A program made the position numbers and the translations under genes. Of a stretch of 64,000 bases of DNA, positions 4,553-20,924 are shown in pieces; position 1 is the first letter of the stretch, and the number at the start of each line of letters is the position of its first letter. The notes beneath the pieces are model-generated. The model was not told the origin of the DNA. It saw nothing but the letters and a program-made list of their open reading frames with translations, and did not search any database. The stretch covers positions 21,875 to 85,874 of the forward strand of contig WQZG01000003.1 in assembly GCA_009780855.1 (NCBI GenBank). Direction: 5' to 3'. This DNA comes from Treponema sp. GTDB lineage: Bacteria > Spirochaetota > Spirochaetia > Treponematales > Breznakiellaceae.

Positions 4553-5584
4553 CTAATCGTTAAGGTTCTGCCTGATAATTATTTGAAAGTCGACATAAAT
4601 TTCGCGCTGTGCCGGCAAAATACCGGTTACAATATAATTATAAATGCGTTTTACCGTTAAATAGGAATGCTGATAGGAATTTTGGTAAATTGTCGCCGCA
4701 ATATTGTTATTCCTTATATTGTTAATTATGGTTTCCGACAAATCAAAAGATATTATGGGTATTTTTCCCAATATTCCAAGTTCAGTAAAAGCGGCAAAAC
4801 AGGCTTTAACCGCGCCAGAATTTAAAAAGAGGGAGTCTATGTCACGGTTTTTACGCAGCATCTCATATACATTTTTGTATGCGATATCATCATCATTTAT
4901 GGCCGTGATTTCGCATTGAATTATATCTTTTCCATAAAGTTGTTTTAGTTTCTCTTTAAATCCCTGTGAACGCCTTAAATTGCCGAGCATCGAAAGCGAA
5001 GATGAGATAAACGCCATTTTATGCAGTTTTGGATTTATTAAATGGAACAGGCCCGCAACGGTTTCGCCCGCTTTATATGTATTTATACCGGCAAAATAAT
5101 GAGGATAATCATTGGGTATATCATTTGAATAACAAAATACCGGTATTTCCAGCGAAGAAATTTTTTCCAATAAGGCTTCGCTGGAAATTGGCTGTATCAT
5201 CAGCGCTACAATTCCGTCTTTTACCAGATCGTCTATCAGGGTTATCTGATGATTAATATCAAAATTCCGGCTGTATACATGACAAAAATTTATTCCCGAA
5301 CCTTCTATCTCCGATATGGCAGCTTTAATTCCCAATTCACTTTGTTCTATCGCGTAGTTGGAAAAATTTGGCTGTACGTGTGATACTATGCCTACCGTAG
5401 CCGGGTGTCTGCGCAATGCAAGCGACTTTGCCATCGCGTTTGGCTGAAAATTTAAATTTTCCAGGATACTGGTAATTTTTTCCCTGGTCTGCGCGCTGAC
5501 TCTGCCCCGGTTATACAGCACCCTGTCTACAGTACCGACCGATACTCCCGATAATTTTGCTATTTCTTTTATTGTATATACCAT
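4553..5584 (-). CDS. LacI-family transcriptional regulator
   Basis: N-terminal HTH YTIKEIAKLSGVSVGTVDRVLYNRGRVSAQTREKI plus periplasmic-binding-like sensor domain. Confidence 0.95.
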   Translation of the reverse strand: MVYTIKEIAKLSGVSVGTVDRVLYNRGRVSAQTREKITSILENLNFQPNAMAKSLALRRHPATVGIVSHVQPNFSNYAIEQSELGIKAAISEIEGSGINFCHVYSRNFDINHQITLIDDLVKDGIVALMIQPISSEALLEKISSLEIPVFCYSNDIPNDYPHYFAGINTYKAGETVAGLFHLINPKLHKMAFISSSLSMLGNLRRSQGFKEKLKQLYGKDIIQCEITAINDDDIAYKNVYEMLRKNRDIDSLFLNSGAVKACFAAFTELGILGKIPIISFDLSETIINNIRNNNIAATIYQNSYQHSYLTVKRIYNYIVTGILPAQREIYVDFQIIIRQNLND

Positions 5585-16982: not shown

Positions 16983-17294
16983 CTAAATTTCAATGCCTGT
17001 TTTTTGAATCTCGGACAGGAAACCGGCATAATCTTCATTGGGATCAATAATATGCGGTTCTATTCTGAAATCAACATCTTTTCGCAGCCGCCAGATTGGA
17101 ACAATTGTTTCTTCATAATTACCGGTCCATTCACTTACAATTAAAGCGATGTCAATATCGCTGTCTTTCCTGGAGCATTCTTTGGCGTATGAACCAAACA
17201 GATAAGCCTTGTCCACTTGTATTGGTATATCACTTGCTCTAACCAGTTTAATATATTTTTTTGCGATAGATATTACATCATCTTTTTTATCCAT
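16983..17294 (-). CDS. MNT-type nucleotidyltransferase domain protein
   Basis: AYLFGSYAKECSRKDSDIDIALI (GSYA..SDIDI). Confidence 0.9.
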   Translation of the reverse strand: MDKKDDVISIAKKYIKLVRASDIPIQVDKAYLFGSYAKECSRKDSDIDIALIVSEWTGNYEETIVPIWRLRKDVDFRIEPHIIDPNEDYAGFLSEIQKTGIEI

Positions 17295-17665
17295 TGCAGG
17301 AATTCCTTAGTTTGTTCGTATATTTTTTGGGTTATTTCTTTAGTCATATATTGAGCTATTTTATTTTTATAATCCGGGTAACGGGCTTCAATATTCAGGG
17401 GGGTTAATCTTTCTAAAAAGATTATTTGCTCTTTTGATAATAAATTATAAAGACCGGATTGCTGAGCTAAAAATTCTAAATCATGTTTAAATGGAGGTGT
17501 TTCATCTTTTCCCTTGATGAAGTAACCTTTTAAAATTTTTTCTATTGCTTGATGACACATAAATCCGGTATATGTATAATGTCCATTCATTAATAATGTT
17601 TCCGCTACCGCAAAATCATTATTGGATAATTCAATCCAATATGACATTTTTTCTTCTATTGTCAA
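17273..17665 (-). CDS. HEPN domain-containing protein
   Basis: WIELSNNDFAVAETLLMNGHYTYTGFMCHQAIEKILKGYFI, IEARYPDY; overlaps MNT gene. Confidence 0.9.
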   Translation of the reverse strand: MTIEEKMSYWIELSNNDFAVAETLLMNGHYTYTGFMCHQAIEKILKGYFIKGKDETPPFKHDLEFLAQQSGLYNLLSKEQIIFLERLTPLNIEARYPDYKNKIAQYMTKEITQKIYEQTKEFLQWIKKMM

Positions 17666-17811: not shown

Positions 17812-17882
17812 GCGGACGTCATATAACGGTATTATCCAAGCTTCCCAAGCTTGTGACGCGGGTTCGACTCCCGTCGTCCGCT
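17812..17882 (+). tRNA. tRNA-Gly(CCC)
   Basis: Acceptor GCGGACG/CGTCCGC with T discriminator; anticodon stem CAAGC-TTCCCAA-GCTTG; T-arm GCGGG-TTCGACT-CCCGT; CCA not encoded. Confidence 0.9.
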
Positions 17883-17940
17883 AATAAATTCGTAGTCTGC
17901 AAAAGAAATTCACTATAATAAAAAAATTATTATATTGCAG

Positions 17941-18160
17941 AATAAACCGGGAGTCGAAACGTAGCCGCGGCGTCTGAGGGTATGAAATACCCGAAGAGGC
18001 AAACTGCCATGGATGCCGTGGCACCGCTGAATAGCGGTGCAGTAAATCCTTCCAATCGCCAAACGGCCCGAAGGGACGTATGGCAGTTTAGCGGTGGAGA
18101 CGGTCTGGAGGGAGCTGCCAGGAGGTCAGCGACTAGAAGGGACTCCCGTCGTCCGCTGAA
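17941..18160 (+). ncRNA. Putative structured RNA-like repeat element, copy 1 (about 220 nt)
   Basis: Aligns with 20114-20255; hairpin GGGUAU-gaa-AUACCC, enclosing GUCU/AGGC, CCGC/GCGG, CAGUUU/AGCUG, GACGG/CCGUC pairings; extra GCACCGCT-gaat-AGCGGTGC hairpin absent from copy 2. Confidence 0.6.
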
Positions 18161-18376
18161 AAATTTTTACACAACAGAAAACCTTATGTAGAAAAAATTA
18201 TCGAATTGTCAATTATTTTCGAGGGATTTTTATGGATTTGATAGACAGCTTCGCCGATACCAATATCAATTTGGTGAAGATTCCGTATTCCGGCATAGCT
18301 TCATGGTTGCTGATAACACATAGTTTCTGTGAAAATCACCGGCTAATAAAATTAACATTAATTCCTTTTTTTCCGC

Positions 18377-18428
18377 ATTCGTCAAATAGCGAATTTTTTT
18401 ATATGAAAAATATCGTTATTTGACGAAT
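18377..18428. repeat. 16-bp-stem inverted repeat (terminator-like or MITE remnant)
   Basis: attcgtcaaatagcga ... tcgttatttgacgaat, one mismatch (G-U in RNA), 20-nt loop. Confidence 0.7.
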
Positions 18429-18539
18429 TTTATTATTATAACAATTAGAAGTATTTGATTGTTTAGCCATATATTTTGATCCCATCTCTTGTCACTTTTT
18501 GTTCAAGTGTTAAATCGTCCATACGATTTAATATCTGCT

Positions 18540-19103
18540 TCAACCAATTTCGCTGAGTCTGTCACAAGTAAAATTCGGGATTTCCTGCGGTGTCCTGGGT
18601 TCCTGGTTTTTGTGCATACCGGTCCTGTGTCTGATTGTCCTCATTCCGATTGCTTTTGCCGGAATTATGTCCTTGTCAATGCGGCGGCCGATCATGACGC
18701 TTTGGGCGGGGAGGCAGCCGCATTTGTTCAATACTGCTTCAAAGTACCGCAGGTCCGGTTTGGTAATTTGGTAGTTTTCCTGGGTCTCTGTAAATTTAAA
18801 ATACTGCAGCAGATTTTCGTTTTGCAGAAATAGTTTAAGTGCCTGCCCGTATTGGCCCATTATACCGATTTTATATTGTTTGGAATATTTTATTAGAAAA
18901 TCTTTTATCCCGTCCATCAGTTTTAAACCGCTGTTGAGATTTTTTGCTTCTTCTGCGTCGGCCAGGTATTGCGAGGCGGAGTAATCCGGAATATGTTTCT
19001 GAATTGCCGCTGTAATGGCCCTGGCCATATTACGCTCAAATTCAGTTTCGTCCAGGATAACTCCGCCCGCATCAAGAAAAATATTTTTTATAGTTATTTT
19101 CAA
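18540..19103 (-). pseudogene. HAD-superfamily hydrolase, decayed copy A
   Basis: Near-identical to 20229..20924 but with a net 35-codon in-frame deletion and motif IV changed from MIGDRIDKD to MIGRRIDKD. Confidence 0.7.
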
Positions 19104-19158
19104 AAAGCACTTGATAAATGAATAGTAATATTTTATTATAACTGTTAAGGAAGATAAT

Positions 19159-19779
19159 ATGAATGTATTTTTATATGTACTTGATACGCTGGCGGATTGG
19201 GAAATAAGTTATCTTACATCAGAAATAAACAGCGGAAGATATTTAAAGAAGAATATTGAAAAACCAAAAATTATTAAAATTGGAAAAAATCTAAAGTCAA
19301 TTAAAACAATGGGGGGAATGGAAATAACTCCTGACATTTGCGTTAAAGACATTAAGGCCCGGGAAGGTGATTTACTTATACTGCCCGGAGCAGATACCTG
19401 GCTGAATGGAGATAATAATGAGATTTTAAATTTTGTAAATGAAAATGTAAATTCAAATTTAACAATCGCAGCAATTTGCGGTGCAACAATCGGTTTGGCT
19501 AATATTGGTTTCTTAAATGAAATAAAACATACAAGCAATAGTTTGGATTATTTAAAAATGATATGTCCGAATTATAAAGGTGAAAAATATTTTTGCAATC
19601 AACCGATCGTTATCTGCAATAATATAATAACTGCTACAGGTTTGGCGCCATTGGAGTTTACATATGAAAAATTAAAAAAGGTTAATATTATGGAGAGTAA
19701 TACCATTGAAGCATGGTATTATTTATATAAAACAAGGGAAGATAAATATTTTTTTGAATTATTGGAATCAATTAAATAA
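19159..19779 (+). CDS. DJ-1/PfpI family protein
   Basis: EGDLLILPGADTW, TIAAICGATIGLANIGFL nucleophile-elbow motif, NIITATGLAPLEFTYE. Confidence 0.87.
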   Translation: MNVFLYVLDTLADWEISYLTSEINSGRYLKKNIEKPKIIKIGKNLKSIKTMGGMEITPDICVKDIKAREGDLLILPGADTWLNGDNNEILNFVNENVNSNLTIAAICGATIGLANIGFLNEIKHTSNSLDYLKMICPNYKGEKYFCNQPIVICNNIITATGLAPLEFTYEKLKKVNIMESNTIEAWYYLYKTREDKYFFELLESIK

Positions 19780-19903
19780 AAATTATAAAGTGAAGTTATT
19801 TCATTTATTTCAAAAATTATATACAAGTTTGTTTTACACACAACCTAATGGCTCATTTCTATTGAACGCCGCATCAGAGGGGCTATGGTTAGATTTAACG
19901 TGA

Positions 19904-20062
19904 GGCATCGCGATTATAGCACCTGATGCATATAAACATGAAAAAAATATTCTTTTTAAAAATAGAAAACGTTCTCACTTAGAAACTGATTCGGTCGAAA
20001 ATTGGAAAATAAATGTTTTTTCATTAATAAAAAAAAATAAAAAATATATTGATCATAAATAG
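19904..20062 (+). pseudogene. Gene remnant, possibly the C-terminus of an alpha/beta hydrolase-like protein
   Basis: Conceptual frame GIAIIAPDAYKHEKNILFKNRKRSHLETDSVENWKINVFSLIKKNKKYIDHK*, preceded by an in-frame TGA. Confidence 0.35.
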
Positions 20063-20113
20063 TTATATTTAGGATATGGAATACATCTTTTAACAGATAT
20101 TTTTATATAGCCG

Positions 20114-20255
20114 GATAAACCAGAAGTCAAAACAGAGCCGCGGTTCCGTAGGTATGTAAATACCCGTAAGAACGTATGGCAGTTTCGTGGCTGAGACGAC
20201 CTGGAGGGAACTGAAAGGAAGTCAGTGATCAGAAGAGACTCCAGTCGTCCGCTGA
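20114..20255 (+). ncRNA. Putative structured RNA-like repeat element, copy 2 (about 142 nt)
   Basis: AGCCGCG/CGUGGCU, GUUC/GAAC, GGUAU-guaa-AUACC, GACGAC/GUCGUC and possible CAGUUU/GAACUG pseudoknot; same order as copy 1. Confidence 0.6.
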
Positions 20256-20924
20256 AATTTCACCAAGTCTGTCACAGGTAAAATCCGGAATTTCCTGCGG
20301 TGTTCTGGGTTCCTGGTTTTTGTGCATGCCGGTCCTGTGTCTGATCGTCCTCATTCCGATTGTTTTTGCCGGAATTATGTCCTTATCGATACGGTCGCCG
20401 ATCATGACGCTTTGAGCGGGGAGGCAGCCGCATTTATTCAATACAGCTTCAAAGTACCGCGGGTCCGGTTTTGTAATTTGGAAATTTTCCTGGGTCTCGG
20501 TAAATTTAAAATACTGCAGCAGATTTTCGTTTTGCAGAAATAGTTTAAGTGCCTGCCCGTATTGGCCCAGTATACCGATTTTATATTGTTTGGAATATTT
20601 TATTAGAAAATCTTTTATCCCGTCCATCAGTTTCAAACCGCTGTTGAGATTTTCTGCTTCTTCATTTTTAATGTTCCTTTTGGTTACGTTAAACTCATCA
20701 ATATTTTTTATGTACTTAAATAAAATGTAATCATAAATATTTGGGACGAATCTGTAAACAGCTTCTTCTGCGTCAGCCAGGTATTGCGAGGCGGAGTAAT
20801 CTGGAATATGTTTCTGAATTGCCGCAGTAATGGCCCTGGCCATATTACGCTCAAATTCAGTTTCGTCCAGGATAACCCCGCCCGCATCAAGAAAAATATT
20901 TTTTATTTCCTTAAAATTATTCAT
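20229..20924 (-). CDS. HAD-superfamily hydrolase, copy B (full length; C-terminus runs into RNA-like element)
   Basis: NIFLDAGGVILDE motif I, ITKPDPRYF, MIGDRIDKDIIPAKTIGM motif IV. Confidence 0.87.
   Translation of the reverse strand: MNNFKEIKNIFLDAGGVILDETEFERNMARAITAAIQKHIPDYSASQYLADAEEAVYRFVPNIYDYILFKYIKNIDEFNVTKRNIKNEEAENLNSGLKLMDGIKDFLIKYSKQYKIGILGQYGQALKLFLQNENLLQYFKFTETQENFQITKPDPRYFEAVLNKCGCLPAQSVMIGDRIDKDIIPAKTIGMRTIRHRTGMHKNQEPRTPQEIPDFTCDRLGEISADDWSLF

Follow-up and report, generated by a model that had tools for sequence, protein, structure and literature searches.

tRNA-anchored structured RNA units with an antisense arm and a tRNA-end copy in Treponema and its relatives

Crossover in the T-loop of transfer RNA (tRNA) and transfer-messenger RNA (tmRNA) genes is a known habit of integrases, and target-primed reverse transcription typically leaves a 3' junction that is fixed and a 5' junction that varies. 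The RNA units described here were found in a 64,000-nucleotide stretch of DNA from Treponema sp. (Breznakiellaceae; GenBank assembly GCA_009780855.1, contig WQZG01000003.1, positions 21,875 to 85,874 of the forward strand), referred to as the window, for which an earlier note had proposed two diverged copies of a compact mobile or regulatory structured RNA, here called copy 1 and copy 2. It is near certain that such units consist of an antisense arm, a covarying core and a tRNA-end copy, and that they form arrays anchored at tRNA genes; this link to tRNA, the defining feature of the family, was overlooked by the earlier note. To our knowledge, the combination of tRNA-antisense arm, tRNA-end copy and tRNA-anchored arrays fits no described system. 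On the evidence of the negative results obtained with Rfam, in the search for a partner enzyme, in the flanks and in the literature, which within its limited coverage gave no account of tRNA-linked structured RNAs like these units, the RNA family is new.

Three models were used for detection. R1, the first, was built from seven copies of the window's own genome and R2 from 58 family members, while R3 is a core-only model with the tRNA-like ends removed, built because R1 and R2 contain the T-arm-like helix P1. A complete tRNA gene on the same strand precedes 106 of 116 units, with 25 anticodon types represented, and the first unit of an array begins 6-77 nt after the tRNA, apart from two cases at 152 and 159 nt. 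Inspection of exceptions among the remaining units showed that a tmRNA gene precedes those of L036 and L050, that truncated tRNAs retaining the T-arm precede those of L074, L077 and L088, that the tRNA of L092 is cut by the edge of the locus, that the match in L037 overlaps its tRNA, and that copy 2 of the window belongs to an interrupted array. Even with the tRNA-like ends removed, all 38 R3 matches in 528 kb fall within tRNA arrays, one of them in L103, a locus chosen only for its reverse transcriptase. Arrays comprise up to six units (L126), and L128 holds five near-identical ones. In the common arrangement the tRNA is followed by a short spacer, in which the tRNA terminator and a -10-like box are often found, and then by arm, core and tRNA-end copy. 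Preceding tRNAs without their 5' half but with the T-arm kept occur in L074, L077, L088, L208, L212, L214 and L235, and look like 3' parts displaced by other elements integrating upstream in the tRNA. In a tRNA-Val array of the window's own genome (L018), a small open reading frame (ORF), by eye resembling a BrnA-type antitoxin, is found after the last unit and ahead of another tRNA-Val 3'-end copy, as if an array could carry a gene.

Both ends of a unit are matched to the individual tRNA. The arm is 9-23 nt long and antisense to the T-loop and 3' end of the unit's own tRNA; its longest exact antisense match averages 13.0 nt against the own tRNA versus 6.1 nt against other isotypes, with some units (L085, L241) having matches as long as 21-23 nt. 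The opposite end repeats the own tRNA directly, most often over 18 nt with C56 and the discriminator base as exact limits. The duplication runs at least 10 nt further into the spacer in 16 of 77 first units; in L042 a 42-nt duplication stops at the start of the arm, and L103 shows one of about 50 nt, with three mismatches, that takes in the terminator. Arm length was considered as a mark of insertion age and dropped, its inverse relation to spacer duplication being weak.

The core is conserved as a structured RNA. In the 58-member alignment, standard pairs occupy 92.3% of the paired cells compared with 67% after shuffling, and double changes occur at 34 of 35 pairs; none of 500 shuffles reached any of these values, which are nevertheless somewhat inflated since the alignment was fitted to the structure. 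Sliding of the pairing partners abolishes the covariation signal. Paired cells contain 52 G-U but 26 A-C combinations (p 0.002), and therefore the conserved molecule is the RNA of the tRNA-sense strand. Both covariation and strand-specific G-U tolerance, which distinguish a structured RNA from a DNA hairpin, were thus found. The consensus runs from P1, in which the arm pairs with the tRNA-end copy, over P2, a variable P3, P4 and a GGAGGCGG linker to P5/P6, with the P4 loop A(N)GGA(Y) being able to hold an optional domain of about 70 nt, and P5/P6 displaying the internal-loop motif UGGAGGGAG/CGACCGGAAG as well as the loop CAGGAN. At 11-15 nt 5' of the units there is an excess of TATAAT-like hexamers (15 observed versus 5.3 +- 2.1). 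Terminator-like hairpins are present in about half of the longer spacers, whereas short spacers have none. The P4 and P6 loops AGGGAU and CAGGAU resemble CsrA-binding sites (GGA), and the unit at 4731-4856 (-) of L125 gave a sub-threshold PrrB/RsmZ match of 21.6 bits (cut-off 44). A role as CsrA sponge was dropped because the loops also occur as ACGA.

In the window, the array is anchored at a tRNA-Gly(CCC) gene (17812-17882, +; Rfam tRNA 57.3 bits, also called by ARAGORN), of which the last 18 nt (17865-17882, +) form the target or duplicated part. Copy 1 (17946-18157, +; locus L034) is a complete unit with arm, core including the optional domain, and tRNA-end copy, and is recognized by R2 at 17946-18150 (79 bits, E 4.9e-18), by R1 (E 4.1e-16) and by R3 (40.6 bits). 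Its 5' arm CGGGAGTCGAA (17948-17958, +), antisense to the T-loop and T-stem of tRNA-Gly, is an exact 11-nt reverse-complement match, and its 3' end GACTCCCGTCGTCCGCT (18141-18157, +) is a direct copy of the last 17 nt of the same tRNA. The promoter-like TTCACT-16-TATATT directly 5' of copy 1 (17909-17936, +) is weak, such sites being not above chance here. Copy 2 (20119-20253, +), a degenerate unit of the same array, is recognized by R2 at 20119-20246 (49 bits, E 1.8e-10) and by R3 (29.6 bits), and its end GACTCCAGTCGTCCGCT (20237-20253) repeats the last 17 nt of tRNA-Gly with one internal change, the tRNA-end copy also being scored with 2 mismatches. As R2 matches nothing else in the window, and both R2 and the core-only R3 return the two stretches, these are real homologues as originally proposed.

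The internal pairings put forward earlier can be judged against the family fold. The inner stem GUCU/AGGC versus GUUC/GAAC is present in the sequence, as is the stem AGCCGC/GCGG(TG) versus AGCCGCG/CGUGGCU, which corresponds to the covarying family helix P2. The suggested GACGG/CCGUC pairing, however, competes with the conserved terminal helix P1 (GGGAGUC 17949-17955 / GACUCCC 18141-18147), for which double changes are seen in seven of seven pairs. Likewise, a pseudoknot involving CAGUUU is not needed, since AUGGCAGUUU (18080-18089) of copy 1 pairs perfectly with AAACUGCCAU (18001-18010). The resulting stem P4 (18001-18089, +; AAACTGCCAT 18001-18010 / ATGGCAGTTT 18080-18089) carries the optional domain (18011-18079, +), which contains the hairpin GCACCGCT-gaat-AGCGGTGC (18021-18040, +) and is also present in the own-genome units L028 1501-1705 and L027 1679-1889. 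Hence, of the 78 nt described as extra in copy 1, the part at 18011-18079 is a true optional domain recurring elsewhere, but the remainder is the 5' strand of P4. The P6 hairpin of copy 1, GCTGCC-AGGAG-GTCAGC (18114-18130, +), with the conserved AGGA loop, is covarying helix 8 of the family alignment. Copy 2 has lost the P4 5' strand together with the optional domain, and its closing helix is degenerate; judged by its sequence, it is therefore a remnant or deletion derivative and not a second functional variant.

Regarding neighbouring genes, a HAD-family gene and a shortened copy of it (18540-19103, -, and 20229-20924, -; DNA 93.6-97.3% identical) both adjoin the RNA units, and the interval from one unit to the other also houses a DJ-1/PfpI gene (19159-19779); a duplication probably took in the HAD-family gene along with part of the array. 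A toxin-antitoxin-like pair of MNT nucleotidyltransferase and HEPN genes (16983-17665, -) lies directly 5' of tRNA-Gly.

The family extends well beyond the window. A covariance-model search of the host and its relatives, which the earlier note had set as a check, returned further covarying homologues: R1 gave 14 matches at E < 1e-3 in the own genome, and matches in 38 of 59 relatives and, under stricter filters, in 42 of 296 genomes sampled from the phylum. When one genome per GTDB species was scanned with a pattern, most matches came from Treponema/Spirochaetales, others from genomes labelled Deltaproteobacteria and from two unassigned bacteria. In these latter genomes R2 finds 2-13 copies each, and the distribution in the phylum of one such carrier is patchy (8 of 198). 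Treponema ruminis, a cultured carrier, has two units according to R2. No match to the strict pattern was obtained in IMG/VR. Two pattern matches in Rhodothermia (L206, L215) lie in a GC-rich repeat without tRNA linkage and probably represent a separate repeat; R2 detects no unit in the genome of L206.

Several comparisons between genomes bear on mobility. At one orthologous locus, between tRNA-Gln and rplY, several species of a genus carry a unit and others are empty, so that copies could be mapped to empty sites as the earlier note had recommended; within a syntenic Ser-Ser-Arg-Ser-Ser tRNA cluster, elements sit at differing positions in different genera. Moreover, cores at tRNA-Asn and tRNA-Gln of related species are 90-92% identical, each core carrying an arm and an end that match the tRNA beside it. 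Together with the 58-sequence covariation and the copy number, the filled and empty sites bear out the earlier description as a compact mobile or regulatory structured RNA with an optional arm. In L251, L252, L253 and L260, species without an RNA unit between tRNA-Gln and rplY, a recurring ggaaaactctggcgtgatgaacgatggggttt is found at this place, and in L080, L081, L084 and L066 (Treponema-type relatives) a second repeated GC-rich element, gggggTGGCGGAAGAC...GCGGGCTGGAGCC...agggggagacttccccctc, lies 3' of the units.

The reading we favour, at an even balance of belief and doubt, is that each copy is a small, non-coding, promoter-bearing mobile RNA gene which inserts into the T-loop guided by its arm and duplicates the target. 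Transcription from its own promoter, or read-through behind the tRNA, would give an RNA of 110-210 nt closed by the helix of arm and tRNA end. The arm would serve as target-recognition guide for the T-arm common to tRNAs and tmRNA, and insertion would always place the 3' junction in the T-loop, the second cut falling at varying distances of about 31-58 nt downstream. As this would duplicate the 3' end of the tRNA, along with its native terminator, the tRNA stays intact. At, or soon after, insertion the arm would be re-matched to the new tRNA, and later recombination between the tRNA-end repeats would add units to arrays or remove them. The integrating enzyme presumably acts in trans; since many carriers are without reverse transcriptase, it would be located elsewhere, divergent or of another kind. 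A more specific proposal, which we put forward tentatively, is a gene-less bacterial parasite of tRNA loci resembling short interspersed elements (SINEs): inserted at the universal T-loop of any tRNA or tmRNA gene, it would retarget itself by renewing its arm as the antisense of the 3' end of the newly occupied tRNA, and the host gene would survive through duplication of that end. Several points weigh against the mobile reading. Most units share only the 18-nt tRNA part and no spacer, where simple target duplication predicts otherwise, and terminator-bearing spacers may differ wholly between close species (L080/L081, L241/L242) in spite of 94-98% identity in cores and downstream flanks. Transcription of the units is a prediction from the DNA, and neither a transposition event nor an integrating enzyme has been found.

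As with integrative elements of the T-loop type, the 3' end of the tRNA, from the T-loop on, was observed as a direct repeat 3' of an intact tRNA. Alternatively, though with a probability we put well below even, the units could be gene-less satellite cassettes of tyrosine-type integrases with the T-loop of tRNA and tmRNA genes as attachment site. A cassette of tRNA 3' end, spacer and RNA would integrate, restore the tRNA and displace the old 3' end, with the RNA being either cargo or a recognition structure. The identity block, mostly reaching exactly from T-loop to discriminator, agrees with this, as do the use of both tRNA and tmRNA and the array structure; the exact 18-nt repeats are explained equally well, and no reverse transcriptase is needed. 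However, a single family would have to serve every tRNA isotype, and neither the inverted, tRNA-tracking arm nor the duplication of native spacer (L042, L103) is accounted for. The 25 families found most often next to the units include no recurring integrase, a survey that did not extend to integrases genome-wide, and the units themselves offer no room for a gene. In the other genomes tested, a reach of 18-20 kb from the arrays likewise yielded neither a large integrase-bearing version nor a larger island bounded by tRNA 3'-end copies; in the 19.9 kb stretch of the window the only further tRNA-end copy is copy 2, 2.1 kb downstream.

The behaviour of the arm also speaks to a function for the host. 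In L081, L084 and L085 its match to the real tRNA extends past the part that the unit repeats at its 3' end. L241 and L242, with about 94% identity in the core, have tRNAs that differ at a T-stem position; here the two 3' copies agree with each other, but each arm has changed along with its tRNA. Over all sites at which tRNA and 3' copy disagree, the arm fits the tRNA 64 times and the copy 8 times, a count biased because the extent of the arm is defined by its tRNA match; it is taken as support for the mobile, arm-guided reading. The fits in L081, L084, L085 and L241/L242, together with the promoter signal of the units, speak for a tRNA-specific regulatory or maintenance RNA, an explanation that we nonetheless rate as improbable and place after the integrase cassettes. 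Here, the arm would have two alternative partners, the tRNA-end copy within the unit and the real tRNA (or its precursor), and would thereby switch maturation or level of that tRNA, while copies would spread by recombination between tRNA loci. Its weaknesses are the patchy occurrence at orthologous tRNAs, the absence from many relatives and the fast turnover of cores at one tRNA, as well as tandem arrays, use of tmRNA and duplicated native spacer.

A 5' guide-like, target-matched arm followed by a structured scaffold, in copies that are non-autonomous, would also suit the guide RNA of a known nuclease or recombinase, be it the omega RNA of HEARO/IscB, the reRNA of TnpB or the bridge RNA of IS110. 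This reading is mostly refuted and the least probable of all, on searches that covered Rfam, RRXRR, Y1 and IS110 but were not aimed at TnpB itself. With Rfam 15 at the gathering threshold, the window gives only tRNA, and the other loci only tRNA and tmRNA. HEARO, suggested by the earlier note, is not matched in the window at E up to 10, nor do group I/II introns or other element-related families match, permissive thresholds included, at which anything beyond tRNA and tmRNA stayed at chance level; better-preserved copies of relatives likewise gave no HEARO or element-related match at E up to 1 and 0.5. A group I-like internal guide, with the arm pairing across the junction, was rejected by reasoning that UUC alone is reliably paired on the 5' side and that the core is too small. 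The Y1 transposase expected for REPIN/RAYT elements and for the IS200/IS605 type, another earlier suggestion, is absent from the own genome and five other carriers (G000, G015, G028, G250, G180, G161, own genome included), as is the IS110 recombinase (DEDD) from G000, G015, G022, G028, G033, G039 and G180, again including the own genome. RRXRR/IscB was found in none of 25 genomes, the control genomes being silent as well, and no protein family recurs beside the units. Reverse transcriptase (RVT_1), as required by retrons, group II introns and other retroelements driven by it, is absent from G000, G259, G022, G015, G028, G044, G047, G056, G039, G195 and G302, own genome included, which leaves room for a divergent or lost enzyme. 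Consequently, reverse transcriptase, Y1_Tnp, RRXRR and IS110 are rejected or unsupported as obligate partners, being absent from carriers (for RRXRR with the control silent). In L103, a reverse transcriptase gene (314-aa frame) ends a few hundred bases 5' of the unit-bearing tRNA-Met, which may be coincidence. Overall, the mobile RNA gene ranks first, followed by the T-loop recombinase cassettes, the host tRNA regulator and, last, a known RNA-guided system.

With more than 100 units examined, two phylum-level groups and most spirochaete relatives covered, a large structured-RNA family is added in which every copy is sequence-matched to the neighbouring tRNA or tmRNA, and part of the variability at tRNA loci is accounted for by the configuration of tRNA arrays. 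If the mobile reading is true, the units constitute a new RNA-based mobile element with a self-renewing, target-matched guide, of both basic and biotechnological interest; if the regulatory reading is true, they represent a layer of tRNA-specific RNA regulation new to bacteria. Both are directly testable in cultured spirochaetes.

Compared with known systems, the units share with tyrosine-integrase elements of tRNA and tmRNA genes the T-loop junction, the displaced 3'-end copy, the intact gene and the possibility of tandem arrays, but differ in being about 110-210 nt long, gene-less and structured as RNA, in using all tRNA isotypes, and in the inverted antisense arm. Eukaryotic SINEs and tRNA-targeting retrotransposons such as Dictyostelium TRE are similar as short non-autonomous RNA genes with promoter, target duplication and a preference for tRNA neighbourhoods; in contrast, the present units are bacterial, anchored inside the T-loop of the tRNA, equipped with a target-matched arm, and found in many hosts in which no reverse transcriptase was seen. 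HEARO/IscB omega RNA and IS200/IS605 elements likewise combine a compact, mobile, structured RNA, guide-like in its 5' segment, with non-autonomous copies, whereas the units are without Rfam match, without detectable IscB (control silent) and in many carriers without Y1, and their target is always the T-arm. The IS110 bridge RNA is of similar size and also contains a target-complementary segment, but no recombinase accompanies the units in cis and IS110 is absent from many carriers. Finally, integron cassettes with attC resemble them as arrays of units that each end in a structured site, while the arrays described here start at any tRNA or tmRNA gene, contain no ORF and are conserved on the RNA strand.
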